From positions 1 to 59,232 of IMG/VR virus record IMGVR_UViG_3300033153_001737: 59,232 bases of DNA, one strand, 5' to 3'. Positions 4,444-25,416 of the stretch are shown here, one piece after another (the first letter of the stretch is position 1; every line of letters begins with the position of its first letter). The notes under the pieces are model-generated. The model searched no databases. It saw only the letters and a program-made list of their open reading frames with translations, and had not been told where the DNA came from. Source of the stretch: a virus. The position numbers were made by a program, and so were the translations under genes.

Positions 4444-4988
4444 TGCCTTTTGAAAATACTTGGCTAGGTAGAGCATTTAAAGGTGGCACAAGTCTTAGTG
4501 GTGGGAACTACATGGGTGATGTCAGGGGTAGTGATGTTGACTACGAAACTGATGTAAAATCATTCGAGACATTCCAGAAAAGCTTCGGGTTACTTAGCGA
4601 CCGCCTTGGTGAAATAGGTGGTGAATTTGAACAGCGAGGACAGTTCGCTGAAGAGGCTTCGGCGCTTGAGAGACAAGGAATTACAAGACAAGGGCTTTCG
4701 AGCCTTTCTCAGTCTCAGGAAGCTGAGGGCAGGACGGGTTTTGCAACTTCAGGCGGTGCCGAACAGGCTGTCGAGGATACCCGAGCTGGCTTTCTTGACC
4801 AACTTCGGGGCAATTCACTGTCGTTAATGCGCGAGAAATTCAACCTAGGGCTTCAGGAAAAAGAATCGCGATTCGGGATGCAGACTAACATGTTAGACCT
4901 GTACGCTAACTATCAGTCTGGCAGAATCAATTTAGACGCAGACGCTATGGGTGGTTTTGACATCGATAAAGAAGTGGGGTTAGGATAA
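4443..4988 (+). CDS. Internal virion protein candidate, 181 aa
   Basis: The chosen ATG at 4443 overlaps the previous stop (TAATG) and has GGAGGG at 4430-4435; an in-frame GTG at 4428 would lie inside that ribosome-binding site. The start (MPFENTWLGRAFKGGTSLSGGN) is Gly-rich. The rest is a Glu/Gln-rich helix (EFEQRGQFAEEASALERQG), consistent with a coiled-coil structural protein. Gene order (small tail genes, then three medium proteins, then the giant protein) suggests ejection or internal core protein. No recognised domain. Confidence 0.6.
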   Translation: MPFENTWLGRAFKGGTSLSGGNYMGDVRGSDVDYETDVKSFETFQKSFGLLSDRLGEIGGEFEQRGQFAEEASALERQGITRQGLSSLSQSQEAEGRTGFATSGGAEQAVEDTRAGFLDQLRGNSLSLMREKFNLGLQEKESRFGMQTNMLDLYANYQSGRINLDADAMGGFDIDKEVGLG

Positions 4989-6520
4989 TGGCTAGAGCTA
5001 GCAATGTAGAGCTAATTCGTTCTATTGGAAGTATTGTCGGTGATGTATCGGGAATGTTACAGGCGACTCCTCAAGAGTTGCAAGCTGCCAGAATTGCCGC
5101 TGACGAAACTTCACAGACTCGTACTATGGAATTTCAGGAAGAGATGAAGGAAGTCGATTTCCAGAATCGAATGTTAGCTGACGAAGTACAGCGACGGGGT
5201 GATGAATTTGAAGACAATGCTAAGTTGATAAATGCAGCTAAGTTGGACATGGCTAACAGGGGAGTTAATTACGAGGCATTTGTAGCTGATGGCGGAGTTA
5301 CCGAGAAACAAAATAGTTTAGTAAATGTTATCAATCGAAAGTATGACAACGCTCTCGGTATTAGCGAAATGCAACTACAGAAACAAAACGACGAGTTGTC
5401 ACATATGATAAACGTACTCGGTCACGACACGCAATTGCAGAACGAAGCTCGCGGCGTATTTGACATGGCTAGAGTTCTTGAAGAAGGTGGCGACGACTTT
5501 ACAATATCTAAAGAAGAATGGGAACTAGCTGGCGACAAGCTCACGGGTGACGAATACGGATATACAGCCGAAGATGTCGAGCGATTGAAAACACTTATGG
5601 CGCCTCAGTATGATGCTCAAATGCAGAGATTCGGCGAGCAACTTGACCGAAGTAAAACTGTCGCTGAAAAAGAAGGCATTAAATCTCGAACCGAATTAAC
5701 TAAAGTGCAGACTGAAAAGTTAAGAGATGAGATAGATGCGAAAGCTAAACTTGACGAATTCCGCAAGGCTGGCTACAAAACAGAGGAAGAAAAGAGTGAA
5801 TATTTTGTTAGTAATATAGATGCAATTGCCCAAAGCGTTACCCTTAATGATGAAGATGACCAAAAAGAATTCAATACAGTACTTGGTCAAATAAAAGAGA
5901 TAAATCGAAAAGGAATTGACCCATCTTTAGCTTCTGATGCAATAGAAAGTAAACTTGATATTTTAATCACGGGTAAAGATTGGGGAAGTACTGGCTGGAA
6001 TGATGCTATTCTAAATGAATTTTTAGCCAGTGACAATCCTGATGAATTCTTGTTAGAAAAGAAACTCGATTTTAACGGTAGAGATGGAAAGTCTGACCCT
6101 AAGAATCAGCGATATGATGCGATAATTAAGCTTCACTCACTGAATCGAATTCTTGATAAAACTCAGGAAGTAGGTTTAGCTGATGGTAGTATTGAATTGA
6201 ATCTTGAAGGAATGGGCGATGCGGATGTCGAAACGACTGTTGTGGAAGATATAATTCCAGCTAAAGTAGATTCTAGCGAAGAAGTTGTTGTCTCTGATGA
6301 ATTAAGAGTTGAGATAAGAGCAATGGATAGTGAAATCTCATCAATAAGGTCAAGCATAGAGGGTCTAAAAAGGAGTAGAAGTCAAAGAGGAATTGGCGAT
6401 TTATACAAAAGAGAAAAGAAATTAAAATTGGCAAGAAAAGCTAAGAATGAAATTCTGAAATCAATGACGAAAAAAGAGTCAAGAAAAGTAGCTAGAAGAA
6501 AACAAAAACAAGCTCAATAA
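4988..6520 (+). CDS. Coiled-coil internal virion protein candidate, 510 aa
   Basis: ATG at 4988 overlaps the preceding stop. Nearly the whole product is charged, Glu/Lys/Gln-rich helix (MQLQKQNDELSHMINVLGHD, DRSKTVAEKEGIKSRTELTK). The end is strongly basic (RKVARRKQKQAQ), which could contact packaged DNA. There is no membrane segment. Adjacent genes make an internal core or ejection protein likely, comparable in position to T7 gp15 or the N4 internal proteins; sequence similarity to those is not evident. Confidence 0.6.
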   Translation: MARASNVELIRSIGSIVGDVSGMLQATPQELQAARIAADETSQTRTMEFQEEMKEVDFQNRMLADEVQRRGDEFEDNAKLINAAKLDMANRGVNYEAFVADGGVTEKQNSLVNVINRKYDNALGISEMQLQKQNDELSHMINVLGHDTQLQNEARGVFDMARVLEEGGDDFTISKEEWELAGDKLTGDEYGYTAEDVERLKTLMAPQYDAQMQRFGEQLDRSKTVAEKEGIKSRTELTKVQTEKLRDEIDAKAKLDEFRKAGYKTEEEKSEYFVSNIDAIAQSVTLNDEDDQKEFNTVLGQIKEINRKGIDPSLASDAIESKLDILITGKDWGSTGWNDAILNEFLASDNPDEFLLEKKLDFNGRDGKSDPKNQRYDAIIKLHSLNRILDKTQEVGLADGSIELNLEGMGDADVETTVVEDIIPAKVDSSEEVVVSDELRVEIRAMDSEISSIRSSIEGLKRSRSQRGIGDLYKREKKLKLARKAKNEILKSMTKKESRKVARRKQKQAQ

Positions 6521-6559: not shown

Positions 6560-9500
6560 ATGCCCACAGAAGCCCAAGTAAGACAGTCTGTGCTTAGTGC
6601 GTACAAAGCAAAAGGTTACAGCAACCCTCCAGAAGAAAATGTACAGGCGTCCATAGACCAGTACTTTAAAAAATCTACAAATAATACAAACTTCTCTCGC
6701 GGAAAAGCACTGTATGATAAATATGGTGACGAAGCCGCGTCTGGTTTTACTGACCAACTAGCATTTAATCTTAGAAACCATGCTCGCGAATTTAAATCGG
6801 GTACTGTCGGTATGGTAGGTTATTTAGCTGGCGCTCTAGGGTTGGACAACGCCTCTATAATCGACTACTCAGAAGAATTGAGAGCTGACGGACAGAGAGC
6901 AATGCAAGAAGAAGTTCGTAACGACGTACAGTTGCAAGCCCTTCTAGCGTGGCAAGCTGACGACCCAGTGACATTCACGGGTGAGAATGCCAACTTCTGG
7001 GAATGGGCTATGATTAAACGCGGAGCCGCATCTGCACTTCCTTCTATTATTGAAATGACTGCAACTTCAGCAATTGGTTATTTGACGGGCTTAGGTGGCG
7101 TTGCATTAGCTAGTAAATTAGGCAAAGGTGTCAGTGCTTCGAGTAAGGCTTTGAAAGCTACTAAGGCGTTGAATGCGACTGAGCTATCTTCATTAGCTAC
7201 CGCTTTTAAGGTTGAATCTACTGTCGAGAACGTCGCGTTAGCGATGACTAAGCGCGGCATATATGATAAGACCTCTAAGGGTTTAGCTATGGCCGGAATG
7301 ACGGGCCTGGAAGGTTCTAGTCAATATAATGAGGCTATGCGCTATCTAGTAGACGAGGAAGGTATGTCAGTCGATGAAGCTAGTGACAAAGCTGGCCTTT
7401 CAGCCGTCATGTATGCACCAATAGCCGGAGCGCTAGAATACCTACCTATGGGACACTGGGCTAAAGGATTAGGACTGTGGAAAAAGGGAGCTAACGAAGG
7501 TACTAAAATATTCGCACGGTCAGCAACTAAATTATCTAAAAAACTAGCCGAACAACAATTACCAGTCAGGATGATAACAGGTGCAGTCAAACAAGCAACT
7601 ATGGAAGCGACCACTGAGTGGACTCAATATATGGCTCAAGTTGCTATGGATGAAGCTTTTGTTAAAGGCGATTACGACACACCCGAACAAGCACTAGAAG
7701 CAATCACGGCTCGCTGGAAAGAGTCGAAGTTTAATGCTGAAGCTAGAGAGTCAATTTACGGCGGGTTCTTGATGGGTAGCGGAATGGGAGTATTTACCCC
7801 AACTGACGGAATCGCTAAAGAGGCTAAAGATACTGAGACATTAGCTGGTCAAGCAATGGCTGCCGCCGAGGAAGCTATGCGTCCCGAAGCTTCAGCAACT
7901 ACAGTAGAAGCCGAAGACATTCTGAAAAAAGCTAGTGAGGCAGAATCAGAAGAAACATTTACTTCTGGCGTGACACCCGAAACTGAAGAAGAGCGTGGAC
8001 AGCGAATTGCTGAAGAGAAGGCAACTCAGGCTGCTGAAGCTATTGAAGGCGAGCAACAACCCGACGTTCCAGATGTCGGCGACACTCAGCGACCTGGAAA
8101 GAAAAAAGCTTCAAATGCAAGAGGCGAAGCGGCATCTTACAAATCTCAGATATTAAAGAATCCCAATACTACGGCTGAAGAAAAAGAAGAGGCTGAAAAG
8201 GCTTGGGAGCTTGGGAAGGGTGACAATTCTAAGTGGGGTCAAATTTCTGAAGACCTTGGTTTTATGGCTGGTAAAATTCGCGAACGAGGAAAAGATGTCA
8301 AGGATGAAAATGCAGAGTTAACTCCAGCTGAACAGGAAAAGTTAATCGAATTAATTGCCGACCCTGAGATGAAATCAGTTGATAGGTCTGCTATGATGTT
8401 AGAGCCTAAAGAACAGCGAAAGCTTATGGCTGATTTAGATTCACCTATATTTGAGAAGGAAAAACCAGCCGAACAAGCCGGATATGAACTTGATAGAAAA
8501 ATAACAATCAAAGCGATGCGTAAGGTTGCTGAAGATAATAAAATTGATATACCTACTACTCTAAAGCTTAAAAAAGATATTGCTGACCATATTGATTCTG
8601 AGTTAAAAAAGCTTTCTGAAAAGCCTAAAGTTTCAGATAAAAAAATTAAACCTAGTGAGATAGAAAGACTTACTAGTATTGTAGAGAATGGAAAGCTACG
8701 CGAAAAAGAAATGTCAAATATTGAATGGGTTCAGTTTGACAAGGCGAAAAAACGATTGAAGGTATTAACCAAAAAATCTACTAAGCCAATTAAGCACGAA
8801 GTTACTATTGACAAGTCTCCAGAATTATCTAAAGAAATGTCTAACGTTCTTCCTGAACAGAAAAACCTTTCGTCTGCAATTGCTAAGGCTATTAATAAGA
8901 CAGGTAAAAAAGTATCTGTTATCTATGATGATACTATTGAAAGTTATGCTAATGCTGTTGATACTGGCACTGAGTTGATAGTTAGGATTAACAACGAAAG
9001 GCTTAAACCTGATTCTAAAGAACGCGGTAGAGTTATACTTCATGAGGCAACTCACCTTATAACTGCTACGGAAATCGAAAGCTGGACTGAAGATGATTCA
9101 AGACAGAAGAATAACGATGACCCCGTAAGTCGCCTTGCTGATTTGTACGACTATGTACTTGGAGAGATGAGTCAAGAAGTTGGTTATTCTGAATATTGGG
9201 AGTTAAGAAAGCGACGTAAAGAATTAAAGGCAGAGAATAAGACATTAAATGCTAAGGATTCTAAGCGCGTTCGTGAACTTCAAGATACTTATTATGGACT
9301 TGACAATTTAAAAGAGTTCGCTTCAGAAGTATTTACGTCAAAGGATTTCCAGGCAAGACTTCAGGGGATGAGGGTAGTTGGCGAGACTACTGTCTGGGAT
9401 AAATTTGTTCAGATAATTATGGATATTATCGGCATAGAGGCGGACAGCGATGTGTTGACAGAAGCACTAGCCGCAGTTATCGAAATAGCCGGACTTGAAG

Positions 9501-12500
9501 TTGAGACTGTTGCGACTAAAAAACCTACAAAGAAGCCAGCTAAGAAAAAACCATCTCGCGGAGAATATAAACGCACTACTCACGGTGGTAAAATTGCAGG
9601 TGGTTTATTTGCCGACTTAACTGGCGAAGAGGTTAGTATTCAAAAGGCTGTCGAAGCTGACCCTAAAAAAGTTGACATCAAAGGGCTGATAGACAGGGCT
9701 AAAGACCTCAATTATACTAAGCTAGGTATCAAGCGCTACGGTTCAGTAACGGCGTTAGCTGACACCCTGAGAGCTTATTACAACGGTACTATCACCGATG
9801 TTAAGCTACAAAAAAGCATGAGTATCTATACTCGTAATTTCTGGAACGCAATCGACAAGTCACTAAGGGATACTGATTTTTCAGACCTGATAGACCGAAA
9901 CAATCCGATTAACGACTTTGCAGATTTCACAGCACCTCAAGAAAAGAGCGACCCTAACGACGAGATTCCAAATCAGAACGGTACTGAGAAGAATATTTTC
10001 ATAGGCTGGCTTGGCGTTGACATGACTTCAAAAGAATACGCGACGATGATGGAGAAGACAAAAGAATATAACACTCCTTCTGAATATACAGCGTGGTTAG
10101 AAGGATGGATGAAGAAGACTTTCAAGAGTCGCGTACCGTCCGAGAGGCTTCATTTATTGGACAAGGGTTTATCAAGACAAGTGAGGAATGTTGTGCATAG
10201 TTTTTATCAGAAGAAACATTCGCTTGTTAATCGCTGGTTTCCAGGGATACAAGATAAGTTAAGTAGACTATATTTTGAAGTAGAGTATGTAGCTAAGAAA
10301 TACCAAGAAGGTCGCTATGGTCACGAGAGAGCATCGTGGATTTCATCGTCTGAACAGATGCCCGGACGTACTTGGGACTTGTCACAGAATAAGTTGAATC
10401 CGAAGTATGAGACTAGCAACTTCACCGAACAGGACAAAATCAGCGGATTAAGAGATGATGATATTCGCACGGTTCATTTGTCTGCCTCACAAATAGTTGA
10501 CAAGCGATTCAGGGGCGACGGTAGTGTATTTCATCAAAAAAGACATGCCGGAATTACTCCTGAATTAATGCAGGAATTAGATTCTGACTTCTCTGAACGC
10601 TGGGAGTTTGACGACTTCGATGCCCTTCTGACCGTTATCGGCGCAAAAGGTGGCGGACGTACTCAGTTGATTATGACAACAGTTGAGGAAAAGTGGCACG
10701 GCGTACTAACTCAAGAACAGTTTGAAGAATATTTAGATGCTGAAATTGAGGCTGGTAACTTGACTGACAAACACAAGTATGAGTTTGTCAAGTCGGCTGA
10801 TACTATGGATGGCAAGTTTCGATACGCACAGTTAATAGGTCAACATGAATGGGCTAAAAAGAATCGACATGACCGCTATGCAATGCCAGGTTATTGGAAA
10901 GGTATTGAAGACTTTCTGAATCGTTTAAGAATTGACCTTGCTGAGGGTTACAGTATTCAGGGTATGAAGAAAGCAATCGAAGGTGGTCGAATTAATAACA
11001 AGCTGATGATAATTCCAGTTGAGACTATTGTTCGATATAATGGACAAGAAACTACTTACGGGAAGTTCGACGGGGCTACCTTTTCATCTAGGCGCTGGTT
11101 TGACGTAGTCCAGGGTTTAATCGGGCAGAAGCCAGGAGTTGACGAGTTCGACTTGTCGTTTGTCAAGTCAGTATTCAGACACCGAAGTAAAGACGGACAG
11201 GATTATTTAGGAGCTAAACATGCACAGTTTACGGCTCCAGCTGGGATGGAATTTGTCAACCCTGAGACTGGCGAAGTTATTGCTAAAGTTGTGATGGACA
11301 AGGTAGGCGAGAAGTCAATACTTGTTGACGCTAACAATAATCAGTTTGACCATATATCATCTGACAACGAAATCAAAAACAAGGCTGGTAGCTTTGAAGA
11401 CTATTATAAACTTCACGACCTTGGCGAAGATGACATTAAGATTCTGTTCACTGGAAACAACAAGGCTAAGGACGTTTCGGTAGTACCGTTTGCGGCAACC
11501 GAGTTTATGTTATCGCACGAAAGTACCGACAACATTAAACGCTTGATTGATATTCTATCAGATAATTATATTGCACAGGCTGACGAGTATATCACTAAAT
11601 TGTACGAGTTCCTGGACGGCAAGACAGTTGACGGTAAGTTTATTCCTGGACAACAGTTGTTAGTAGATGAATTAAAGCGCGACATCCTAGCAGGTGAAAC
11701 ACCTCCTGAGATACAGCTATTGATAGGCTTAGACCCTACTGGCGCGCTACTACTTCATCCTAGCTCGGCTATGGAGCTTACAGCGTACTTTAATAACAAG
11801 TACTTACTTGACACAGCATACAAGGGAAGACGACTTGACGGGACTTCTACACAGGCGTATTTAAAGCCACAAGCAGGAATGGACATCAATCCTGGAGAGG
11901 TCAAATTCTCTATCGGTAATAAGCCGATGTTATTACAGGCTCAGAAAATGTATTCAGAAGCTATGGATATTAGTATCGAGGACTTCAGGGCCATGCCTGA
12001 GATTGAGATGATAGACTTGCTCAACGCTTGGCTCGAAGACGAAGGTGGCTTCTACGTACTTGGCTCTAGACAACCTGTTAACAAGTGGACTGCCGTAAGG
12101 CCATTCAAGGTAAAAGGTTTTGACCGACTGTCTCGCGGCGCAGAAGTATTTCACAACTACGATGATGTTATGAAAATTCTCGAAGGTGACTGGGATGGCG
12201 ACAAAACATACTTTGACGCATTCCGCAAAGCTGACGATGAATTGTTAGCACTGTACAAAGATGTTATCAATAACGACATCTCGAAAATTGACAGACAGTT
12301 ACCACTAACTCACTTTGGCGAAAAGCTAGACAAGGGCGACAAAAACAGTTTCGCTAATCTCGAACAAAGACTTCAAGTTGCTGAGAATATTATGGCAGCA
12401 GACGGAGCAGTCGGCTTGTCAGTATCTAATGCAGCATTGTTTAAAAGCTTGGCGTTCAAAAACTTCAAGCTGTCGTTTAAAGTCAAGGGTAAAGAAGATG

Positions 12501-15500
12501 TTGTCTATGAGATACAACAGCCTACCGGAAAAGACTTAGCCGCAAACTACACTTTCCAAATCCCACTTCGTATTAGTCAGATGAAAATAAAAGAAGAATA
12601 TGATATTGCTACACAGGCTACCGACAAAATATGGAATGACAAAGCTGAGGAAGTATCATACGCTCAGGTCAAGAAATGGGACGAAAAAACTGACGGTAAA
12701 CTGTGGTTACGCACTACACGCGAACACGCCTTTTCGCTAATGACGCAGATGGCTACCGATGACGCTAAATTCGGGCTATTGTCTAAGCTTTACAATTCAG
12801 CAACTACTACACTGAAGGATTTTATTGTCAGAGACATCATGTTTGCTAGCGACATTAAAGACAAGAAGCACCTGAAAATTATCAAGAATGTAATGAGCCA
12901 ATTCAATGCTCTGCAAAAGCGACAAGGTAGATTCAACGGAAAGGGTATGAATCTTGAGCAGAATATAGCTACGAGCATGCAACTCAGTGACTTGTATTCT
13001 CAAGCTACAGAAGAAGAATTTCTGTCACATCTCAATACTTCGTTTGCTCCAACGCCGTCGAAAAAAGATGTCTCGTCAGTATTTATAGAGATGGACAACT
13101 CACCAACTCCTATGGAAAAGATGATGATGGTAGTCGGCGAGAGGCAAATTGAAAGAATTAAGTCTTCTGATACAAATATGTATTCTAGCAATCCGCTAAG
13201 ATTTGAAAAAGACTATGAGTTGTTTTCTCATTATAAAGCGGTGACTGAAAGCTGGGAAACGTATCAGAAAATTATCGGTAACACTTCGATAAAAGACCAG
13301 ACTGTAGCTGTGTCGGCTATGGAAGAAATATCAGACGCATTTTACTTCATATTGCAAGAGTATTTTGACGAGACTGGAAGCGTTAAGGACAATGTCAGAA
13401 TTGACAAGAATGAAATGTTCGACTTATTTAAAGAAGAATATTTACCGATATATGAATCGCTAACTGACGCTCAAAAGGCAGTTGCTAACATGCGCTTCTT
13501 GACAGGTTCGTGGATGACAATGACTGACAAAAGACGCGGTAGGGAAGTCAGGACTAGAAGGATTAGGATTGAGAAGTTATTGCCTGCTAAGTTTCTACAT
13601 AAGGAATTAATGACCGAGTATGCAACAAGACGACTTGAGATATTGACAAATATTAGAAAAGCTGAGGGTATGATTCCAATTGCATATCCTGGACAGCGGC
13701 TCAAGGAATCGAAGGAAATATACAGGTCGTATGAGAAGAATTTTAAGAATAAGGGCTGGACATTTACGGGAATAGAGTCAACATTGTCGGCAATTAACGA
13801 AGCTGATGAGTTTTCTGACTTCTCAGATGGGATAGAAGCCGAGACGGGTGAAGAAACTAGTCACAAGGAACGTGAAGCTTATCGAATGACTGCCGAGGTA
13901 CTTGTTAACAGTATGGTAGGTAAGGTATCAGAGTCAGACATCGAGACAGCTAGAGGTATCAACAAGGCTAGGCTGAGAGCCGCAAAGGGGTTGAATGATG
14001 CAATTTACGCCGATATTGTCAATGTAGGTCAGTTAAAGGGTTGGGACTCTGAGGACATTCAAGGTCAGTTACAGGGCTGGAATGATATGTTGATGAGATT
14101 CAATCACGGACAGAAAGTCACCCCAGCTTCTATTATGTTCGGTGAGAGAAAGGCGCTAGGATTGTTAAAGCGGGCCAATACAATGATGCAACGTCGAAAT
14201 CAGCTAATGAAAAAGGCCAAGAAGAGTGGCAATATGTCATTGTGGGAGCGAGCAGTAGGTAGACCCGAAGTAGTGATGTTTATGTGGGACAGGACGGGTA
14301 TCGCTAATCGTATTGTTGAGAAAGCTTTGAAGGTCGGCGATTCTGCACAACAGGTTTTCAATCAGATGTATTTACCCGTCGGGAAACAAACTAAGCTAGT
14401 AAACGACGCGCTGACTAAAGCCGTATCTCTTGTAGAGGGTGGAATAACTTTAGGGAACGCAGGCGTTGGCTATATGGAGTATGAGGAAGATGGCAAAGCT
14501 GGAAACTCATACATCATAAAGGACAAAAGGCGTATTTCCGGAATAGTCGAATATTATATACTGTCTAAAACTGACAGGGATGGAAACACTGAGGTCATGA
14601 ATAAGTGGGTAAGCTCTGACATTATACAGATGACTGAGGATGAATTTAACAGCAAGCTTATCGAAAAGATTTCTAGTGAATTTGTATATGAGATAATGAG
14701 CGGTCAGTCTCGCTATATTTCATTTCAACGAATTGACAGCTATAACACTTTAAGAAAAGAGCACAAAGGCTTATACAATCAGATTGACAAATTAGCTACT
14801 GACAAAAATCACCCTGAATACAGACATACCTTTAAACGCGGAGGAGTTACTTATCAATATGTTATGGTGAAATCTGGAGAAGCTAAGTTGCAAACAGACC
14901 TGACCATGCCTGAATTTTACGGTGCATTTATCGTAAATATGGTTGACGCAAGCGGTAACTATACAAACTTCCTGAAGGGCAGTAGCCTGACTTCAAACGT
15001 CGGAGACACTATTGTCCCAGATGTTGCTATTCCTAAAGACGGCTGGTTCAGGTCTGAGATGGCTTCTAATATCGAAACACCGAGCGGCAAGACGTACAAA
15101 AGTTTTGTCAAATTTAGACCGTCAGAAGAAAGTTTCGGCGTCAAGGTCAATAAGGAATTGTTTAAGGACGAAGACACTTTCGGTTTGTGGAGACTTGTAG
15201 CTGAAAATAGAGCCGCATTATTCTCAATGTTTAATTTCACCAAACAAAAGAATCAGAAAACTGAAGCGATATTGCAGAAATATATTGACCGACTGAGAGT
15301 ACAATTAGGTAGGCGTTTTCCTAAAGAGATGGACCAGGAACAAAGAGAAGAAGCTATTAATGACTACATAAAAGAGAATCTTCTTTCTGGCGACATCGAG
15401 GGTAGAATGTATATCGACAAAGATGGGAAGATTCGCACTGGGAATACTGGCTTTCGTGAAGTGTTCGACAACTATATGCCTCGAATGTATCCTATTGACG

Positions 15501-17524
15501 CGCTTTATGAAATGATGGACACCGAACACGAGAGTATTCAAAGTGAATTGAATGACAGGAAAACTGAACTGTTGTCAGCAAAAAGCAAACGTGATTCAGG
15601 CAAAATCAAAAAAGAGATTGAGAAGCTTGAAGAAGATTTCAAGCATATCAATAATATCCGAAATTACAACTATGATGTTGCTGAGGGTGACGCTAAGGAA
15701 ATCAATCGTAATATTGTGTCGAGGCAGATACTTGCAGCGAAAAAACGCAAGCCATTCACTAGACCCGAACTTGCAAGAAAAGATTCACAGGTACTCAGCG
15801 ACTATATGAATGCCACTCTAGGCGTTGCATTTAACAACGAATTAGTCGCTAACCTAGTACAGTCATTGACTAAGATGTTGAATGCTGGCTTAAACGAGGA
15901 CGTTATCGACTATTCAGTTAATAAAGTTAAACAGGCGGTAGGTGACGCAGGAACTAGAGGACTGTTCGGCAAAGACAGACAGGTAGGTAGTTACAAATGG
16001 GTAGCTAAGATGTTGAACAAACTACCATTCGTCGAACAAGAATATAATGCTGATAGTGCAAGAACTGCAATATTACATGCAGGCGGCTTTGTCAGCATGA
16101 GATTCCTAGGAGCTACGGGTGCATTGCAAAACAATACACAGATAGCTAATGCTTATATTCGAGAGGGCATGGGTACAATAACCGAAGCGTGGGGTTATTT
16201 ACACGGAGACGACGAAAGTAAACAGTTGTGGAAAGAGCGAATCTCACACACTGGAGTAGAGAACACATTGTCGATGTTCGAGCATTATATGACTAAAGAC
16301 AACAAGGTCAAGTCTACCGATTTCTTTACATATCCTGGAACTATTATCCCAGGTAAGAATATGGTTCAGTGGGTTAAATTATTGAGGTTGTCAAGAAAAG
16401 AGTTCGCAAACGGAAAAGGCGGAGACTTTGAAAAGCTTGACGATTTTATAGCTAAGTTTCAAGATGCTTATCCTGGGATAAAAGGCAGGAGCATATCGTA
16501 CATCAGGAAAGCCTTGTACGACTTAATGAAGACCGACAAGGTTGAGAGCCAGGACATCAAGCTCGTTGAGTCGCGTATTAGAAATGTATTCGGAGACTTA
16601 GCTAAGGACAAATTTAGAGCCGCAGTAACGTGGAAGTTGAGTTGGTGGTTTGAAAAAGCTCCTGGAAAGGAATTGTTTACATTCACCGAGGGTGAGAAGA
16701 ATATGCGACGAATGGTTGCATTGACGGCTATCATAGGAGCTGTAAAGCGCGGCCTAATAACAATACCTAAAGAATATTATGACAAGTACGGCGACAACGC
16801 ATTCAGCGAATATATTAAGACTGACGAGTTGTACATTAATGACGAAGCTATCGACGTTGGTAGAAAAGCCGTGTATGCAATGATGTTCGGAATGTCTGAG
16901 GTACATCTAGGCGAAGCATTCTCTGGAGCGTTCAAGTTATTGAATCAGTTTAGAGGCTACCCAGTACAACAGACGCAATTTGAGTTCGATACAATGAGGT
17001 CATTCTTCGACGGAAGTAAAAATAAACAGGATAGTATTACGCGACTATTTAATGCTCAGATGGCAATATTAAAACAGGTAGCGAGTGGGAAGAAAAACAT
17101 TAACATTTACGACGATTATAAAGACCACGATGCAGTCGTGATGCTACGCTTGATGTACACGCGCTTTTTAGCCTCATCAGTATCAGTATTAATTAAAATG
17201 ATACCTATGGCTGGCGGCCTAATTAGAAGGGTGACACCCTTTGAGTTTGGGTATAGTGTTGTTCGCGGAGCTGAGTCGCCAGCATTGTCATTCACTTTAA
17301 GAATGGCAATGTGGGGTTCGCTTGCGATGTTGGGATTTGACGATGACGATGACATTTTTGAGAAAGTGTCGGAAGACGGCATCAGAAGTTTGTTGATGTT
17401 TACAACGCCTGCATTACTAGGAATGTTAGCGCGTGATGTTTATGAGTTCGCTGAGTGGTTTACCGAAATAAACGACAACGCTTCGTTTACGAATATCTTG
17501 AAAGCTAGTCCTCTGGTTGGATAA
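6560..17524 (+). CDS. Giant virion protein: putative double-psi beta-barrel RNA polymerase with a zincin domain, 3654 aa
   Basis: ATG follows GAAAGG at 6545-6550. Domains in order: an N-terminal region with an amphipathic, Gly/Ala-rich segment near residues 155-195 and repeated helical blocks to about 430; a charged linker; a zinc metallopeptidase-like domain with HEATH at 828-832 and downstream NLKEFASEVF (916-925), the pattern of peptidase domains in phage polyvalent proteins. Next comes a polymerase-like core: DG at 1504-1505 followed by FSSRRWF, and a Lys (GAKH, K1553), resembling the first barrel of single-chain DPBB polymerases; then RQP at 1837-1839 and DWDGDK at 1877-1882, matching the RAP and DFDGD signature of the second barrel, with D1877, D1879 and D1881 as predicted magnesium ligands. 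About 1,700 residues follow, ending in hydrophobic segments (around 3535-3640). Related architecture is known for the virion RNA polymerase of crAss-like phages (phi14:2 gp66). Polymerase activity is inferred from motifs. Confidence 0.7.
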   Translation: MPTEAQVRQSVLSAYKAKGYSNPPEENVQASIDQYFKKSTNNTNFSRGKALYDKYGDEAASGFTDQLAFNLRNHAREFKSGTVGMVGYLAGALGLDNASIIDYSEELRADGQRAMQEEVRNDVQLQALLAWQADDPVTFTGENANFWEWAMIKRGAASALPSIIEMTATSAIGYLTGLGGVALASKLGKGVSASSKALKATKALNATELSSLATAFKVESTVENVALAMTKRGIYDKTSKGLAMAGMTGLEGSSQYNEAMRYLVDEEGMSVDEASDKAGLSAVMYAPIAGALEYLPMGHWAKGLGLWKKGANEGTKIFARSATKLSKKLAEQQLPVRMITGAVKQATMEATTEWTQYMAQVAMDEAFVKGDYDTPEQALEAITARWKESKFNAEARESIYGGFLMGSGMGVFTPTDGIAKEAKDTETLAGQAMAAAEEAMRPEASATTVEAEDILKKASEAESEETFTSGVTPETEEERGQRIAEEKATQAAEAIEGEQQPDVPDVGDTQRPGKKKASNARGEAASYKSQILKNPNTTAEEKEEAEKAWELGKGDNSKWGQISEDLGFMAGKIRERGKDVKDENAELTPAEQEKLIELIADPEMKSVDRSAMMLEPKEQRKLMADLDSPIFEKEKPAEQAGYELDRKITIKAMRKVAEDNKIDIPTTLKLKKDIADHIDSELKKLSEKPKVSDKKIKPSEIERLTSIVENGKLREKEMSNIEWVQFDKAKKRLKVLTKKSTKPIKHEVTIDKSPELSKEMSNVLPEQKNLSSAIAKAINKTGKKVSVIYDDTIESYANAVDTGTELIVRINNERLKPDSKERGRVILHEATHLITATEIESWTEDDSRQKNNDDPVSRLADLYDYVLGEMSQEVGYSEYWELRKRRKELKAENKTLNAKDSKRVRELQDTYYGLDNLKEFASEVFTSKDFQARLQGMRVVGETTVWDKFVQIIMDIIGIEADSDVLTEALAAVIEIAGLEVETVATKKPTKKPAKKKPSRGEYKRTTHGGKIAGGLFADLTGEEVSIQKAVEADPKKVDIKGLIDRAKDLNYTKLGIKRYGSVTALADTLRAYYNGTITDVKLQKSMSIYTRNFWNAIDKSLRDTDFSDLIDRNNPINDFADFTAPQEKSDPNDEIPNQNGTEKNIFIGWLGVDMTSKEYATMMEKTKEYNTPSEYTAWLEGWMKKTFKSRVPSERLHLLDKGLSRQVRNVVHSFYQKKHSLVNRWFPGIQDKLSRLYFEVEYVAKKYQEGRYGHERASWISSSEQMPGRTWDLSQNKLNPKYETSNFTEQDKISGLRDDDIRTVHLSASQIVDKRFRGDGSVFHQKRHAGITPELMQELDSDFSERWEFDDFDALLTVIGAKGGGRTQLIMTTVEEKWHGVLTQEQFEEYLDAEIEAGNLTDKHKYEFVKSADTMDGKFRYAQLIGQHEWAKKNRHDRYAMPGYWKGIEDFLNRLRIDLAEGYSIQGMKKAIEGGRINNKLMIIPVETIVRYNGQETTYGKFDGATFSSRRWFDVVQGLIGQKPGVDEFDLSFVKSVFRHRSKDGQDYLGAKHAQFTAPAGMEFVNPETGEVIAKVVMDKVGEKSILVDANNNQFDHISSDNEIKNKAGSFEDYYKLHDLGEDDIKILFTGNNKAKDVSVVPFAATEFMLSHESTDNIKRLIDILSDNYIAQADEYITKLYEFLDGKTVDGKFIPGQQLLVDELKRDILAGETPPEIQLLIGLDPTGALLLHPSSAMELTAYFNNKYLLDTAYKGRRLDGTSTQAYLKPQAGMDINPGEVKFSIGNKPMLLQAQKMYSEAMDISIEDFRAMPEIEMIDLLNAWLEDEGGFYVLGSRQPVNKWTAVRPFKVKGFDRLSRGAEVFHNYDDVMKILEGDWDGDKTYFDAFRKADDELLALYKDVINNDISKIDRQLPLTHFGEKLDKGDKNSFANLEQRLQVAENIMAADGAVGLSVSNAALFKSLAFKNFKLSFKVKGKEDVVYEIQQPTGKDLAANYTFQIPLRISQMKIKEEYDIATQATDKIWNDKAEEVSYAQVKKWDEKTDGKLWLRTTREHAFSLMTQMATDDAKFGLLSKLYNSATTTLKDFIVRDIMFASDIKDKKHLKIIKNVMSQFNALQKRQGRFNGKGMNLEQNIATSMQLSDLYSQATEEEFLSHLNTSFAPTPSKKDVSSVFIEMDNSPTPMEKMMMVVGERQIERIKSSDTNMYSSNPLRFEKDYELFSHYKAVTESWETYQKIIGNTSIKDQTVAVSAMEEISDAFYFILQEYFDETGSVKDNVRIDKNEMFDLFKEEYLPIYESLTDAQKAVANMRFLTGSWMTMTDKRRGREVRTRRIRIEKLLPAKFLHKELMTEYATRRLEILTNIRKAEGMIPIAYPGQRLKESKEIYRSYEKNFKNKGWTFTGIESTLSAINEADEFSDFSDGIEAETGEETSHKEREAYRMTAEVLVNSMVGKVSESDIETARGINKARLRAAKGLNDAIYADIVNVGQLKGWDSEDIQGQLQGWNDMLMRFNHGQKVTPASIMFGERKALGLLKRANTMMQRRNQLMKKAKKSGNMSLWERAVGRPEVVMFMWDRTGIANRIVEKALKVGDSAQQVFNQMYLPVGKQTKLVNDALTKAVSLVEGGITLGNAGVGYMEYEEDGKAGNSYIIKDKRRISGIVEYYILSKTDRDGNTEVMNKWVSSDIIQMTEDEFNSKLIEKISSEFVYEIMSGQSRYISFQRIDSYNTLRKEHKGLYNQIDKLATDKNHPEYRHTFKRGGVTYQYVMVKSGEAKLQTDLTMPEFYGAFIVNMVDASGNYTNFLKGSSLTSNVGDTIVPDVAIPKDGWFRSEMASNIETPSGKTYKSFVKFRPSEESFGVKVNKELFKDEDTFGLWRLVAENRAALFSMFNFTKQKNQKTEAILQKYIDRLRVQLGRRFPKEMDQEQREEAINDYIKENLLSGDIEGRMYIDKDGKIRTGNTGFREVFDNYMPRMYPIDALYEMMDTEHESIQSELNDRKTELLSAKSKRDSGKIKKEIEKLEEDFKHINNIRNYNYDVAEGDAKEINRNIVSRQILAAKKRKPFTRPELARKDSQVLSDYMNATLGVAFNNELVANLVQSLTKMLNAGLNEDVIDYSVNKVKQAVGDAGTRGLFGKDRQVGSYKWVAKMLNKLPFVEQEYNADSARTAILHAGGFVSMRFLGATGALQNNTQIANAYIREGMGTITEAWGYLHGDDESKQLWKERISHTGVENTLSMFEHYMTKDNKVKSTDFFTYPGTIIPGKNMVQWVKLLRLSRKEFANGKGGDFEKLDDFIAKFQDAYPGIKGRSISYIRKALYDLMKTDKVESQDIKLVESRIRNVFGDLAKDKFRAAVTWKLSWWFEKAPGKELFTFTEGEKNMRRMVALTAIIGAVKRGLITIPKEYYDKYGDNAFSEYIKTDELYINDEAIDVGRKAVYAMMFGMSEVHLGEAFSGAFKLLNQFRGYPVQQTQFEFDTMRSFFDGSKNKQDSITRLFNAQMAILKQVASGKKNINIYDDYKDHDAVVMLRLMYTRFLASSVSVLIKMIPMAGGLIRRVTPFEFGYSVVRGAESPALSFTLRMAMWGSLAMLGFDDDDDIFEKVSEDGIRSLLMFTTPALLGMLARDVYEFAEWFTEINDNASFTNILKASPLVG

Positions 17525-17584: not shown

Positions 17585-18370
17585 TTATTTCTTGCTGAAA
17601 TTGTCTAAGTCTGATTTGATTCCAGATAATGATTTTATTGCAGTACCTATTCTATTAGATGCCGCTTCTGTATTTTCTAATAGTGAATCTATTTGATTTG
17701 TGTCAGTTATATTTTCTGATTTTAATTTTCTCAGTAATCCTAATAACCTGTAATAATTACTCCAGCCATATTCACCTAACAATTTTTCTAAACTACTTTT
17801 TTCTACATCTGTGTTTATATTTTCTTCAGCATCGGCAAGTCTTTTAACTAATTGTGATTTTATTATCATTGAAAGTCGTCTTGTAGATATTTTCTTTAGT
17901 AGCCAATCTCTCCAGTATTCCTCTTTAGTCGAATAGAATGGTATTCTGTCACTATCAATTTTGTTCATGATAATATATGTAGCCATCTCAGGTGGAAATT
18001 GTACGTCTCTAAACAGAGCCTTTTTCATAATCCTAAGCCCATTTTCAACCTTGTCGTTATAGTATATTAAGCCACATCTGTCATCAACTTCGTGCTTTTT
18101 AATCAAGCCAGTTGGGCATACCCAGTAAAAGAAATTGCAATAGCCTAAATAGTCTACCCATTTAGTATCATTAATAAAATCAGAACGTGATATTTTTATT
18201 TCGTAGGCTGTAAAGTGATTTTTAACCCACGACTTTTTCATAGCTAAAGCATCAAGAATTTTAAGTTGTCCTTTCGGTACGTAGCTTGGTCCATTCTTTA
18301 CCTCAGTCATGAAAAAGTCGTCTTCGTGTTTCCTTGCTAACGCTTTTTTTATCTCAGTTGATGAAATCAT
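17585..18370 (-). CDS. MmcB-like PD-(D/E)xK nuclease, 261 aa
   Basis: The N-terminal half carries YEIKISRSDF (56-65), then KWVDYLGYCNFFYWVCP (70-86) and DDRCGLI (96-102). This is the pattern of the MmcB family (Pfam DUF4287/MmcB-type DNA repair nucleases), in which the E-x-K of the PD-(D/E)xK fold is followed by a 'W-DY--YCD-FYF--P' stretch. The C-terminal 120 residues are helical and unassigned. It is the last gene of the early block, with a 4-base overlap to the gene upstream. Likely job: processing or repair of DNA ends or branched DNA; the target is unknown. Could also be a Holliday-junction or nicking enzyme of the same fold. Confidence 0.65.
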   Translation of the reverse strand: MISSTEIKKALARKHEDDFFMTEVKNGPSYVPKGQLKILDALAMKKSWVKNHFTAYEIKISRSDFINDTKWVDYLGYCNFFYWVCPTGLIKKHEVDDRCGLIYYNDKVENGLRIMKKALFRDVQFPPEMATYIIMNKIDSDRIPFYSTKEEYWRDWLLKKISTRRLSMIIKSQLVKRLADAEENINTDVEKSSLEKLLGEYGWSNYYRLLGLLRKLKSENITDTNQIDSLLENTEAASNRIGTAIKSLSGIKSDLDNFSKK

Positions 18371-18732
18371 ATTCGTACTAAATCTTTAATCGGGTAAAAA
18401 ACTTGCAAGTCGAATCCGTCTGATTTAAAGTGTAGGAATATTTTCTTTTCTAGTATTTCTTTTGCCATTACTGAATAGTATTTTTGATTCATTCTTATAT
18501 ATATCGGCTTCTTTGAAAGTCGCTTATGCTCAGCCAGCCACTGGAGGGCGTAATAATTAAAACCAATCATTCCACCCCCCGCTCTCATTATTCCGTTTTT
18601 ACTTACAAATTTGATAACTTTACCGTCTTTGAATGCAAATATTTGCTTGTTATTTATATCCTTTTTTAGCTTTAGGTAGATACCCGTATCTCCGATGAGT
18701 AGCTTGTTCCCTTGGTCGTCTAGTTTCTTCAT
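18367..18732 (-). CDS. Unknown protein, 121 aa
   Basis: A basic protein with alternating beta-like segments (LLIGDTGIYLKLKKDI, KKIFLHFKSDGFDLQVFYP) and no membrane helix. Its start lies 83 bases inside the upstream gene in another frame, and its stop overlaps the MmcB-like gene by 4 bases. The start is uncertain: the ATG at 18732 has only a weak GA-rich site upstream. No family recognised. Confidence 0.6.
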   Translation of the reverse strand: MKKLDDQGNKLLIGDTGIYLKLKKDINNKQIFAFKDGKVIKFVSKNGIMRAGGGMIGFNYYALQWLAEHKRLSKKPIYIRMNQKYYSVMAKEILEKKIFLHFKSDGFDLQVFYPIKDLVRI

Positions 18733-18835
18733 CTTTCATCTCTTCCATTCTGCATACGGCCTTAAACCATTGTCGCGTGTCCCATAACATTGGGTCGTAA
18801 CCTCTCTCGACCGCAAATTCTTTAGCTTTGCTCAT
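18650..18835 (-). CDS. Small basic protein, 61 aa
   Basis: Starts MSKAKEFAVERGYDPMLWDT and ends with a strongly basic tail (RRPREQATHRRYGYLPKAKK). Overlaps the next gene downstream by 83 bases in a different frame and the upstream gene by 14. The long overlap makes either an unusual pair of overlapping genes or a wrong start in the downstream gene; the first 30 residues look like real protein. Function unknown. Confidence 0.5.
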   Translation of the reverse strand: MSKAKEFAVERGYDPMLWDTRQWFKAVCRMEEMKDEETRRPREQATHRRYGYLPKAKKGYK

Positions 18836-19055
18836 TCGGAATGTCTTTGAGTGAAAATTCTATTTGCGCACATTTGTCGTGATTGTAAAGAGTTGAAGAA
18901 AGTATTAATTTTATTTTCTGTAACAATTTCAAATAATCACTTTCACAATCTCTGTCAATAGAATCTACCATTTCAAAACCTTCATAATTATTAGCTGGCT
19001 GTCCCGTATATGATTTGTTCATTTCGTCAATCATTGCATCAGTTGTTTTACTCAT
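18822..19055 (-). CDS. Small acidic unknown protein, 77 aa
   Basis: ATG overlaps the stop of the upstream gene by 4 bases. The product is acidic and helical (NNYEGFEMVDSIDRDCESDY, then a Leu/Lys-rich helix). No domain or membrane segment is recognised. Part of the tightly overlapped 17.6-20.3 kb gene run. Confidence 0.55.
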   Translation of the reverse strand: MSKTTDAMIDEMNKSYTGQPANNYEGFEMVDSIDRDCESDYLKLLQKIKLILSSTLYNHDKCAQIEFSLKDIPNEQS

Positions 19056-19270
19056 TGTGACTGCCTGTAGTTTAGTATCATTGCAATATTCGACACATCG
19101 ACCCAGTCCTCAGACATAATGTTCTCTTTCATTCTTTCTTCCAACAATTCATCTGATATTGCCTCGCTCGGCTCATCCCATCCGGTATATCCCTGTGTTT
19201 CTTTTTGATTAAACTTAGTGATACATTTTGAATGAAATGCCGTTAATGCTTTTTGTAGTTTACTATTCAT
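19052..19270 (-). CDS. Small acidic unknown protein, 72 aa
   Basis: A Glu-rich soluble protein (SEAISDELLEERMKENIMSE) preceded by a short Lys-containing helix. Overlaps the RuvC-like gene upstream by 8 bases and the next gene by 4, so it is probably co-translated with them. No recognised family. Confidence 0.55.
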   Translation of the reverse strand: MNSKLQKALTAFHSKCITKFNQKETQGYTGWDEPSEAISDELLEERMKENIMSEDWVDVSNIAMILNYRQSQ

Positions 19271-19772
19271 TATTTACCTTTCTAAGATATTCAGCGATTA
19301 ATAGTCCATCCATATCCTTGCAATTATGTACGTTTGCATTTGGATACAATCGCTTGCCTAATGTTAATGAAGCTATTTTCAACTCCTCTTTTTCCACACC
19401 TTTTGGTAGCATCTCGCGTTGCCACTTCTTCGAGTCAATATAGTCAAACGGTATTTCGAGTTCTTCAAGACATATCTCAGTAGCTTCGTGTGACCTTGCG
19501 GCTGACACGGTTTGATGAAAGCGAGTGTTGTTTATCATCGGTCGCTCAAGTCTACAAATAATACGGTCTGCGTCCTTTATCATCAAGGCTAGGTTTTTCT
19601 TCAAGTCCTTGTATTCGATTCTGCTTACCATTCGCTTTACTGACTTAGTATAATTCATCACTTTTTTAACAGGAGTCTTGATTTGAATTGCATTTAATAA
19701 ACTATCTTCTAATGTTATACAGCCTATTGAGCCTGTTACACCGTTGTCTATTCCAATATATACTATTTTCAT
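19263..19772 (-). CDS. RuvC-like Holliday junction resolvase, 169 aa
   Basis: RNase H-fold signature: IGIDNGVTGSIG with Asp9 near the N-terminus, LERPM with Glu76, YIDSKKWQREMLP (111-123), and CKDMDGLLIAEYL (151-163) supplying the last acidic pair. Length fits the RuvC/phage resolvase family. Expected role: cutting Holliday or branched junctions made during replication, recombination or before packaging. Its neighbours are a zinc-ribbon protein and helicase, consistent with DNA processing. All expected acidic positions are present. Confidence 0.8.
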   Translation of the reverse strand: MKIVYIGIDNGVTGSIGCITLEDSLLNAIQIKTPVKKVMNYTKSVKRMVSRIEYKDLKKNLALMIKDADRIICRLERPMINNTRFHQTVSAARSHEATEICLEELEIPFDYIDSKKWQREMLPKGVEKEELKIASLTLGKRLYPNANVHNCKDMDGLLIAEYLRKVNNE

Positions 19773-20020
19773 CCGTAAAATTCATCCTTGTTAAATAATC
19801 GTGAATAACCACATTGACCACAACGAAGACTTACAAATCCACCCTTTTCGGTAACTGACTTGAAAGTTATGTTGCAATTAGGGCAGTACTTATCATCACC
19901 CAGTGGTTTACCTAAAACCAATCCAGCCTTGTTTCTCGTATAATAATCTTGATTATACTGAGCAACTTTCTCAGGATTGTTTTTTCGCCATTCTCTTATG
20001 TAATCTTTACGCGAGTTCAA
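19769..20020 (-). CDS. Zinc-ribbon protein, 83 aa
   Basis: A basic helical N-terminus (SRKDYIREWRKNNPEKVAQYN) is followed by a C-terminal zinc ribbon with CPNC (46-49) and CGQC (67-70). The N-terminal helix has the look of the short 'REWRKNNPEK' motif seen next to some HNH and DNA-binding proteins. Overlaps the RuvC-like gene by 4 bases. Likely a small DNA-binding or adaptor protein; partner unknown. Confidence 0.65.
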   Translation of the reverse strand: MNSRKDYIREWRKNNPEKVAQYNQDYYTRNKAGLVLGKPLGDDKYCPNCNITFKSVTEKGGFVSLRCGQCGYSRLFNKDEFYG

Positions 20021-20330
20021 GATTTTCTACCTCATTTTTTAATGAGAGAAGCTCACTCTCTAAGTAACATTTTTCATCTTCTAAAGTATCAATTTGGTTT
20101 TCTGCCGCTTTTCGCATATCTTCATTCGTTGACCTGACAGCTTCAAAGCTGGTTTCAAATTCATCATAAATTGCTTCAGCATAACTTTTTATATCGCTCT
20201 CCATTTCTTTTTCTGTTACTCTTGGTGAAAATTCAGTTATAATTTCTTCTACATATTCAGCAATCGCATCTTTTAATTGTCCGATACTTTTATCAATATC
20301 TGGGCAGGTATTCCCGTAATCAAAGCTCAC
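20007..20330 (-). CDS. Acidic coiled-coil protein, 107 aa
   Basis: Start taken at GTG (20330), preceded by AGGAGG with about 10 bases spacing. Acidic and helical, with a C-terminal Leu-heptad stretch (QIDTLEDEKCYLESELLSLK) that should form a coiled coil. It is the first gene after a short gap carrying the bipartite motif, so it may head its own transcript. Function unknown. Confidence 0.6.
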   Translation of the reverse strand: MSFDYGNTCPDIDKSIGQLKDAIAEYVEEIITEFSPRVTEKEMESDIKSYAEAIYDEFETSFEAVRSTNEDMRKAAENQIDTLEDEKCYLESELLSLKNEVENLELA

Positions 20331-20357
20331 AGGCTCATTTCCTCCTATTTGACCGTC

Positions 20358-20397
20358 TAATGTAAGAATACAGCCGTACTCCTACAAGGGTTATTTT
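20358..20397 (-). promoter_or_regulatory. Bipartite motif, copy 2; possible internal early promoter
   Basis: On the - strand AAAATAACCCTTG (20397-20385), 14 bases, then TATTCTTACATTA (20370-20358). The two halves match the site at 3399-3437 in 25 of 26 bases with a gap one base longer. TTGTAG and TACATT are spaced by 17 bases, a weak sigma70-like promoter reading toward the 20330 gene. A 9-bp inverted repeat TAAGAATAC / GTATTCTTA (20363-20371 and 20407-20415) surrounds the right half. Confidence 0.45.
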
Positions 20398-20422
20398 TTC
20401 AGTATAGTATTCTTAAAGTATT

Positions 20423-21721
20423 TTAACCGTCTTGCGCCTCCGCTTCAATAGCCGTTTTGTAAAACATCATCTTGTCTCCGTTAAAGCCGACATCATAAGT
20501 TGCTGGTTCACCATAGCGAGACTTCGCTACTATAATATTAGCTTCATATTTACTAGCTTCTTCATGGTCAAATAAATACTGTCTGAATATAAACATAGCT
20601 GATTCAGCAACCTGCTCAATAGTACCACCTTCGGCAAAATCTGAGCCTCTAGGCATCGGGTCAATACGAGACTCAATACCTCTAGAAAGCTGACTGACGA
20701 GTATTACATGACAGTTAGTGCTTTTCGCAATCCACTTATATTCATTCATTATTTCTTCGATTTGGAAGCGTCGTTCAGTAACTCCGGCAACTTTAATTAG
20801 CTGTATATAATCATCAATAATTACATCTGGTTTATGTCGCTTAATTTCTCGCATTGTTTCTTCTAAGTCTCTGACATCATCATACATCAATAAGTTTGCA
20901 TAACGCTTTTTCATTGTTTCTCTTATGTTCTCAAGTTTTGCGTAATCCTTTTCTGTAAACTGTTTTTTCCGTAGCTGTTTAGAGCGAAAATGTTCATTAA
21001 TAATTACCAACTTCTCAATCATTGCTGAATTACGCATTTCGCGATTAAACATCATTACTTTTAATTTTCGACTAGGAGCTGTCAGATTATGAATAATGTT
21101 TGTAACAAGCGTAGTTTTTCCATGGGAAGGCCTGCCGCCGATAGCCGTAATTTCTCCACGGGTTCCGCCACTAGCCGCATCATCCATTGCTGGTACACCG
21201 AATTGTATGAGATTGTCAGCAGTAATAATATGGTCAATAGAGTCGTCTATAACGTCGGCAATGTCAACTTTACGCGTAGGTTGTAAGTTTGCGAGTTCTT
21301 CAATATATTTTTGATGTTTGACTAATATCTCTGAGGTATCTTGATACGAACCGTCTAGCGCTACCTTTTGCATTTCAGCAGAAGTTTCAGCAACTTTACG
21401 CTGTACGTATTTAGAGTATACGATTTTAGCGTAATGTCCTGCATTAGCGGTAGACGGAATATTGTCAGTTAGTTCGGTTAAGTAATATGCTCCACCTGCT
21501 TCTTCGAGTTTGTCAGTTTCTTTAAGTGCGTTCACTACGGTCACTAAGTCAACAGTTACTTTTTCTTTTATAAGTTGTTTAATTGCTTTCCATATGGCCC
21601 TGTGTCCCTTTTTGAAAAATACATCCTTTTTCAGCCAACCCTCAACTTCTTCAAATCGAGTATTGTCTAACATTATCGAGCCAAGTACGGCAATTTCTGC
21701 TTCAGAACTATGCGGTATCAT
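20423..21721 (-). CDS. DnaB-like replicative helicase, 432 aa
   Basis: N-terminal DnaB-type helical domain (SSEAEIAVLGSIMLDN, 5-20; GGAYYLTELTDNIP, 76-89) followed by a RecA-type motor domain with Walker A GGRPSHGKTT (195-204), Walker B VIIDDYIQLI (300-309) and SQLSRGIESR (343-352). Length and domain order are those of DnaB/SPP1 gp40. It should unwind DNA at the replication fork. No DNA polymerase or primase is recognised nearby, so it probably loads host replication proteins; a loader has not been identified. The stop is followed by a 92-base gap. Confidence 0.92.
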   Translation of the reverse strand: MIPHSSEAEIAVLGSIMLDNTRFEEVEGWLKKDVFFKKGHRAIWKAIKQLIKEKVTVDLVTVVNALKETDKLEEAGGAYYLTELTDNIPSTANAGHYAKIVYSKYVQRKVAETSAEMQKVALDGSYQDTSEILVKHQKYIEELANLQPTRKVDIADVIDDSIDHIITADNLIQFGVPAMDDAASGGTRGEITAIGGRPSHGKTTLVTNIIHNLTAPSRKLKVMMFNREMRNSAMIEKLVIINEHFRSKQLRKKQFTEKDYAKLENIRETMKKRYANLLMYDDVRDLEETMREIKRHKPDVIIDDYIQLIKVAGVTERRFQIEEIMNEYKWIAKSTNCHVILVSQLSRGIESRIDPMPRGSDFAEGGTIEQVAESAMFIFRQYLFDHEEASKYEANIIVAKSRYGEPATYDVGFNGDKMMFYKTAIEAEAQDG

Positions 21722-21903
21722 GAAGAAGTATCTTCCATTATAGAAATAAATATTTCATTTGATTCTTTATCGTAATAATATATACAAGCAACTTGGCTTT
21801 CATTGTCACGGTCCAATGCTGAATATTTTTCAGCTTTAGGGTGAGAACAAAGCCATTCATTTTCATCCATTGGTTTAATTTTAATATCACTAAATACACT
21901 CAT
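21718..21903 (-). CDS. Small acidic unknown protein, 61 aa
   Basis: Overlaps the helicase start by 4 bases (ATGA). Acidic with beta-like segments (SQVACIYYYDKESNEIFISI). No domain recognised. Its coupling to the helicase suggests, but does not show, a role in replication. Confidence 0.55.
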   Translation of the reverse strand: MSVFSDIKIKPMDENEWLCSHPKAEKYSALDRDNESQVACIYYYDKESNEIFISIMEDTSS

Positions 21904-22178
21904 TAGAAATATTCAACTCCATTATTTGTCATTTCTCTTCCATTCTCAGCTTGCAATTGAATCATTTTTCCTATTTCGACTAAAGCTTCACCAAAACCAA
22001 AAGCTCGAGGTCTATTCCCATCGTATACTGGTTTCGTAACTCTAAAAAGTTGTTTATTTATATAAATTTCAGTTATATCAAATCTTCTTTTAGAATTATC
22101 AATACCTCCTATTGCCATTTGGGCAAACGGGCTTGGCTTTTCGGAATAAAAGGCCATATTTATTTTTAGTTGATTCAC
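21903..22178 (-). CDS. Unknown protein, 91 aa
   Basis: Starts MNQLKINMAFYSEKPSPFAQ and has a central beta-rich part (RRFDITEIYINKQLFRVTKP). Overlaps the methylase gene by 4 bases. Soluble, no motif recognised. Confidence 0.55.
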   Translation of the reverse strand: MNQLKINMAFYSEKPSPFAQMAIGGIDNSKRRFDITEIYINKQLFRVTKPVYDGNRPRAFGFGEALVEIGKMIQLQAENGREMTNNGVEYF

Positions 22179-23859: not shown

Positions 23860-23860
23860 T

Positions 23861-25396: not shown

Positions 25397-25416
25397 CTTC
25401 TACCCTTTCTATTTGC

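Follow-up and report, generated by a model that had tools for sequence, protein, structure and literature searches.

The IMG/VR virus record IMGVR_UViG_3300033153_001737, analysed here over its whole length of 59,232 bases and referred to below as the window, encodes a giant protein of 3654 residues. Residue conservation and structure prediction support the middle of this protein as a single-chain RNA polymerase of the two-barrel kind that cellular polymerases also represent. The giant protein is one of a family of two-barrel polymerase proteins that had not been annotated before; no paper describing the family was found in the literature consulted, and the survey of two-barrel polymerases of viral genomes in Supplementary Data 4 of the P23-45 paper may already list it. 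The interpretation favoured here, at a probability of about 0.82, is that the enzyme is a DNA-dependent RNA polymerase that is packaged in the particle, ejected with the DNA and used to transcribe the early module.

The giant gene is the sole open reading frame of the genome that bears DxDGD or HExxH. In its translation, DWDGDK begins at residue 1877, SRQP at 1836 (giving R1837 and P1839) and DGATFSSRR at 1504, and K1553 sits within DYLGAKHA, so that all of the residues singled out by an earlier note on this DNA are present. The DG/K/K region lies 373-324 residues ahead of the Asp triad, within the one open reading frame. DxDGD by itself arises in 6.9% of shuffles of the window protein, and DxDGD together with RxP approximately 34-42 residues upstream in 0.1%; the pair is therefore suggestive, but not proof alone.

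Searches of Pfam, PHROGs and PDB sequences with the window protein gave no match. The 111 residues that surround the motif served as a query and recovered a first relative, an IMG/VR contig showing a local identity of 47%, and iterated alignment-based searches of IMG/VR brought the family to 20 distinct members, which share approximately 21-38% identity with the window protein. Against a background of change at most other positions, a catalytic set is invariant in 20 of 20: D1504, G1505, G1522, K1536, K1553, K1606, G1610 and R1757, followed by R1837, P1839, D1877, D1879, G1880, D1881, G1952 and K1967 (numbering of the window protein). The readings of DxDGD as a catalytic triad and of SRQP as NRAP-like, both put forward in the earlier note, thus withstand comparison across divergent relatives. 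Its proposal for the first barrel fared less evenly: the DG pair and K1553 were borne out, while FSSRR is not conserved in the alignment and was rejected as a motif. The final lysine of DWDGDK, K1882, is likewise not universal, and several relatives have H, T or D at this position.

Further resemblances to known polymerases lie around this catalytic set. The distance from the arginine to the Asp triad is 39-40 residues in the six members measured and 38 in P23-45 gp96 and gp64. The helix pattern T2052...H2056......Q2063-x-A-x-D2067-x-x-K2070 resembles the P23-45 gp64 segment HAATEMIQVAVDRQK, the common pattern being H(x6)QxAVDxxK. In addition, three members align with phrog_2987 ('RNA polymerase beta subunit') across the DxDGD barrel without a shift in register, at E-values of 0.001 to 0.04, each of which is marginal alone.

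Template-free AlphaFold2 modelling of residues 1345-2140 from the 20-member alignment, which proved sufficient for a confident fold prediction, gave a predicted local distance difference test (pLDDT) of 81.1 and a predicted template modelling (TM) score of 0.78; an earlier model from 3 sequences had a pLDDT of 37 and was discarded. When the model was compared by Foldseek with 350,542 PDB chains, the top match was the phi14:2 virion RNA polymerase, gp66 (6VR4; E 1.2e-8, probability 1.00), followed by QDE-1 from two fungi and maize RDR2 (E 1e-7 to 7e-6), and then by bacterial beta' chains and the AR9 non-virion RNA polymerase (nvRNAP; 4.6e-4). All PDB matches with E < 0.001 are two-barrel RNA polymerases, and P23-45 gp64 (8f72) is found at E 4.8e-3. 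Among the BFVD models, three unnamed viral proteins cover nearly the whole prediction (TM-score 0.70-0.78, E to 1e-35), and further matches are to crAss-like phage proteins and to proteins named RNA-dependent RNA polymerase. The model places K1536 and K1553 in beta strands and the Asp triad in a loop running into a strand.

As judged from sequence and model, the protein thus combines a DxDxD triad, both barrels in one chain with the beta-like barrel first, and an NRAP-like Arg/Pro element. It is the invariance of the catalytic residues in all 20 relatives, together with a predicted fold that best matches gp66, that upholds the single-chain paired-barrel architecture suggested earlier by comparison with phi14:2. 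Alignment and model together establish conservation of the catalytic residues and a relationship in fold, and they would identify as polymerases a class of environmental phage proteins that had carried no annotation.

Several results nevertheless count against the favoured interpretation. A search of the PDB with the sequence profile (hmmsearch) returned no polymerase match, and hhalign comparison of the family profile with single gp66, gp96, gp64 and phiKZ proteins gave no signal. The TM-score of the whole model to 6VR4 is modest, at 0.44, and the modest TM-scores to PDB entries imply that only the core corresponds. Finally, the search for a phage-specific early promoter motif reached a best likelihood of 136, the null being 127 +/- 3 (10 shuffles, maximum 132), and the core of this motif occurs at chance frequency; no such motif is therefore claimed. 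Sigma-70-like sites in the early region number 77 against 62 +/- 8.5 by chance, a slight excess only.

The setting of the gene is that of a late structural module (Table 1). The first 227 bases of the record (1-227) recur at 59006-59232 with 3 mismatches, a terminal repeat that probably marks the record as a complete genome of about 59.0 kb. The late strand carries the small terminase (38225), the large terminase (TerL), the portal, the capsid protein and proteins without family matches, continues across the junction, and ends with the giant gene. This order is kept in one syntenic relative, which also has portal and capsid genes. Members of the family are mostly contigs of about 35-60 kb, and the two most complete genomes have a P22-type portal. 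The earlier remark that the other genes are not crAss-like agrees with the P22-type portal, the SU10-type capsid protein and a TerL nearest to those of Mu-like and other phages; crAss-like phages were not among the listed tblastn matches. No tape-measure gene was recognised. In most relatives, a DnaB-Dam-DUF932 block (window 20423-23859) adjoins the polymerase gene pair on the convergent strand, at 27-58% identity.

Table 1. Features of the giant protein and of its genomic surroundings, in window coordinates (DPBB, double-psi beta-barrel).
Feature	Position	Strand	Basis or remark
Giant polymerase-bearing protein gene	6560..17524	+	Open reading frame, ATG to stop, 3654 residues; relatives in IMG/VR
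N-terminal ejection-type domain (residues 1-415), motif E251..M260...A274..A278	6560..7804	+	23 invariant columns in 10 relatives
HEATH (828-832), zincin-type metallopeptidase motif	9041..9055	+	Relatives have HEFAH, HEYAH, HEYFH or HEFFH before polymerase
Polymerase core as modelled (residues 1345-2140)	10592..12979	+	AlphaFold2; Foldseek top match 6VR4
Beta-like barrel DPBB-B (approx. residues 1490-1631)	11027..11452	+	Strand-rich in model; invariant D1504-G1505, K1536, K1553
D1504-G1505	11069..11074	+	20/20
K1536, second barrel lysine, absent from earlier note	11165..11167	+	20/20; beta strand in model
K1553	11216..11218	+	20/20; beta strand in model
Beta'-like barrel DPBB-A (approx. residues 1755-1887)	11822..12220	+	Strands in model; invariant R1757, R1837, P1839, DxDGD
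R1837-Q-P1839, counterpart of cellular NRAP arginine/proline	12068..12076	+	R and P 20/20
DWDGDK 1877-1882, predicted metal-binding Asp triad in loop	12188..12205	+	DxDGD 20/20
T2052...H2056...Q2063-x-A-x-D2067-x-x-K2070, probable bridge helix	12713..12769	+	T and D 19/19; helix in model; gp64 pattern
C-terminal part (residues about 2430-3654), own gene in relatives	13847..17521	+	39% identity to separate 1183-residue protein of L002
Probable small ejection protein, 181-186 residues	4428..4988	+	28% to 162-residue protein of syntenic relative; layout as N4 gp52
Probable ejection protein, 510 residues, directly upstream of giant gene	4988..6520	+	Place of 802-residue protein in syntenic relative (N-terminal match 1e-5); layout as N4 gp51
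Convergent early/replication module, proposed transcription target	17585..38028	-	DnaB helicase, Dam methylase, DUF932, dUTPase, Rad52-like protein, exonuclease
Large terminase (TerL)	40656..42344	+	phrog_38 E 2.7e-41; nearest Mu-like and other phages, 21-23%
P22-type portal protein, defines structural module	42450..44765	+	PF16510 E 2.4e-31, phrog_156
SU10-type major capsid protein	45682..47370	+	PF17236 E 4e-10

P23-45 (PMC10770324) and N4 (PMC12633501) provide precedents for giant virion proteins whose polymerases enter the cell by ejection and transcribe the earliest genes. By analogy with such characterised systems, and from gene order and architecture, we infer virion location, injection, early transcription and the roles of individual residues. 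The giant protein would be synthesised late and then packaged, and would be ejected through the tail with the DNA, alongside the two small proteins whose genes lie immediately upstream; its N- and C-terminal parts may serve in packaging, threading and membrane passage. Within the cell, the polymerase would transcribe the convergent early module until the host polymerase takes over. In its active site, D1877, D1879 and D1881 of the beta'-like barrel are predicted to hold the catalytic metal, which K1536 and K1553 of the beta-like barrel would face, with R1837/P1839 as a putative NRAP-like element and the 2052-2070 helix as the probable bridge-helix element.

The strongest competing explanation is that the protein is a non-virion two-barrel polymerase acting in the cell on middle or late genes, as do P23-45 gp64 and the phiKZ nvRNAP. 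Two-barrel non-virion polymerases do exist (PMC10770324), yet the known examples are stand-alone or multisubunit, whereas over 2,500 further residues, which include a metallopeptidase motif, are joined to the window domain. Furthermore, its gene follows those of two probable ejection proteins and closes the late structural module, and no other DxDGD protein is encoded in the genome; this explanation is therefore considered improbable. A role as a primase, or as a replication or repair enzyme, is less probable again. In its favour, archaeal PolD also has the two-barrel fold (PMC10770324), and the genome encodes a DnaB helicase but showed no primase or DNA polymerase among the proteins scanned. 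However, the significant PDB fold matches are to RNA polymerases and not to PolD, and the gene is grouped with the late structural genes, outside the replication module. It is very hard to regard the protein as a structural ejection protein with a dead, relic polymerase domain: most of the chain is indeed not polymerase, as the model spans 796 of 3654 residues, but all 20 relatives retain the Asp triad, both lysines, R1757, R1837 and P1839. A chance motif in an unrelated protein is scarcely credible, for although DxDGD alone is not rare among shuffled sequences, conservation, fold prediction and the Foldseek result all contradict it.

Particle-borne two-barrel polymerases have been characterised in crAss-like phages, in P23-45 and in phiKZ-like jumbo phages. 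The nearest in predicted fold, phi14:2 gp66, likewise has both barrels in a single chain and belongs to a virion structural gene set, and in both proteins the Asp triad is followed by a lysine (DFDIDK in gp66, DWDGDK in the window). The window polymerase differs in being joined, in one chain of 3654 residues, to N- and C-terminal parts with a metallopeptidase motif, and no sequence similarity between the two was detectable by hhalign. The phage types also differ: the phi14:2 genome is 100 kb in length, against 59 kb for the window phage with its P22-type portal and SU10-type capsid. With no gp66 profile similarity, and with a portal, TerL and capsid that do not place the genome in Crassvirales, the protein does not, on these tests, group with the crAss-like virion polymerases, although it would act in a similar way to them and to the P23-45 and N4 enzymes.

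P23-45 gp96 (PMC10770324) shares with the window protein a two-barrel polymerase inside a giant protein with a metallopeptidase domain, and its RNPV motif and RxP-to-Asp spacing are nearly identical to those of family members. However, gp96 is a siphovirus tape measure with an N-terminal polymerase, whereas the window polymerase is central and has no profile match to it; a P22-type portal and the lack of a recognised tape-measure gene also separate the window from this type of fusion. QDE-1 and RDR2, eukaryotic RNA-interference polymerases, have the single-chain two-barrel fold, but are cellular and carry other flanking domains. The multisubunit phage polymerases of phiKZ and AR9 share the catalytic barrel, as seen in the matches to AR9 nvRNAP and phrog_2987, but their barrels lie on separate subunits and their phages are jumbo phages.

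In overall plan, the window protein most resembles gp50 of N4 (Schitoviridae; PMC12633501), a giant protein of ~3,500 residues with an N-terminal domain, a central polymerase, an HExxH motif and a large C-terminal part. The late end of N4 encodes gp52 (150 residues), gp51 (644) and gp50 (3500), compared with 181-186, 510 and 3654 residues in the window, and the polymerase gene is last in both. Zincin domains are always fused to N4-like virion polymerases (PMC5512222); HExxH follows the polymerase in N4 and precedes it in the window. Yet the N4 polymerase has a T7-type fold, unrelated to the two-barrel enzymes that the window model matches, and the window protein is thus not of the N4 type. A profile of the N-terminal domain gave a weak, local match to the N-terminus of the Schitoviridae virion RNA polymerase (~50 columns, score 35.7, HHalign probability 18%), compared with a score of at most 19.7 in reversed and 40 column-shuffled controls; no match was found between the C-terminal part and that of N4 in profile comparison. 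An ejection frame in common with the Schitoviridae enzyme is possible, but not established. A tentative extension, which we think less likely than not, is that this is a third independent particle-borne transcription enzyme, in which the T7-type module of an N4-like short-tailed-phage ejection protein was replaced by a cellular-type two-barrel polymerase. The N-terminal ejection domain, metallopeptidase motif, large C-terminal part and two partner ejection proteins would then be held in common with N4. If true, ejection frame and polymerase would be exchangeable modules.

The relatives bear on how the giant gene was assembled. Where a gene boundary is visible, the polymerase part is encoded by one gene and a protein of about 1,180-1,310 residues by another, and only the window has the two fused as a single gene. 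The sister of the window protein, L002 (tree support 100/100), is split, so that the fusion in the window is probably derived. L065 encodes the polymerase as a stand-alone gene of 1399 residues between genes of 853 and 1248 residues, which marks the polymerase as a discrete module. In the split relatives L002, L009, L011, L013 and L015, the polymerase-bearing protein has a cysteine in its last three residues (several end in GC, EC, KC, CK or CKV), and the next gene begins within a few bases. The HEATH motif of the window (828) is off the family position: in relatives, HE(Y/F)(A/F)H directly precedes a KLG-I-K segment, which the window retains (residues about 1040-1060) without HExxH. From these sequences, the ancestral zincin seems to have been lost in the window protein, with another one present upstream.

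The family adds mostly small phages to those with particle-borne two-barrel polymerases, and it opens tests of how single-chain two-barrel enzymes diversified, of how a polymerase threads through a short tail and of whether the C-terminal part needs to be linked. When the polymerase regions of the window, L015, L062 and L065 were searched by tblastn against 50,697 isolate-phage records, no match was obtained, and two pattern scans of bacterial and archaeal genomes found no family member. The tblastn matches of L063 to many isolate phages were set aside, as they arise from a small extra domain and not from the polymerase. This domain (L063:1-3678, residues 916-1119), downstream of the polymerase, is 37-48% identical to proteins of many alphaproteobacterial large phages (Caulobacter, Rhizobium, Ruegeria), possibly a hint as to the host.

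Three further observations concern the records themselves. The open reading frames at 58754-59143 and 1-2643 of the window are one gene split by linearisation, in which one mismatch creates a stop near 59141-59143. P23-45 gp64 (L017), a non-virion RNA polymerase, is labelled a head or capsid protein in PHROGs (phrog_25317) and in RefSeq/GenBank, which is a misannotation. Lastly, the relative L023 (IMGVR_UViG_3300030329_001359) lies on a contig of 111 kb, approximately twice the size of the others, and the family may therefore extend to larger phages.
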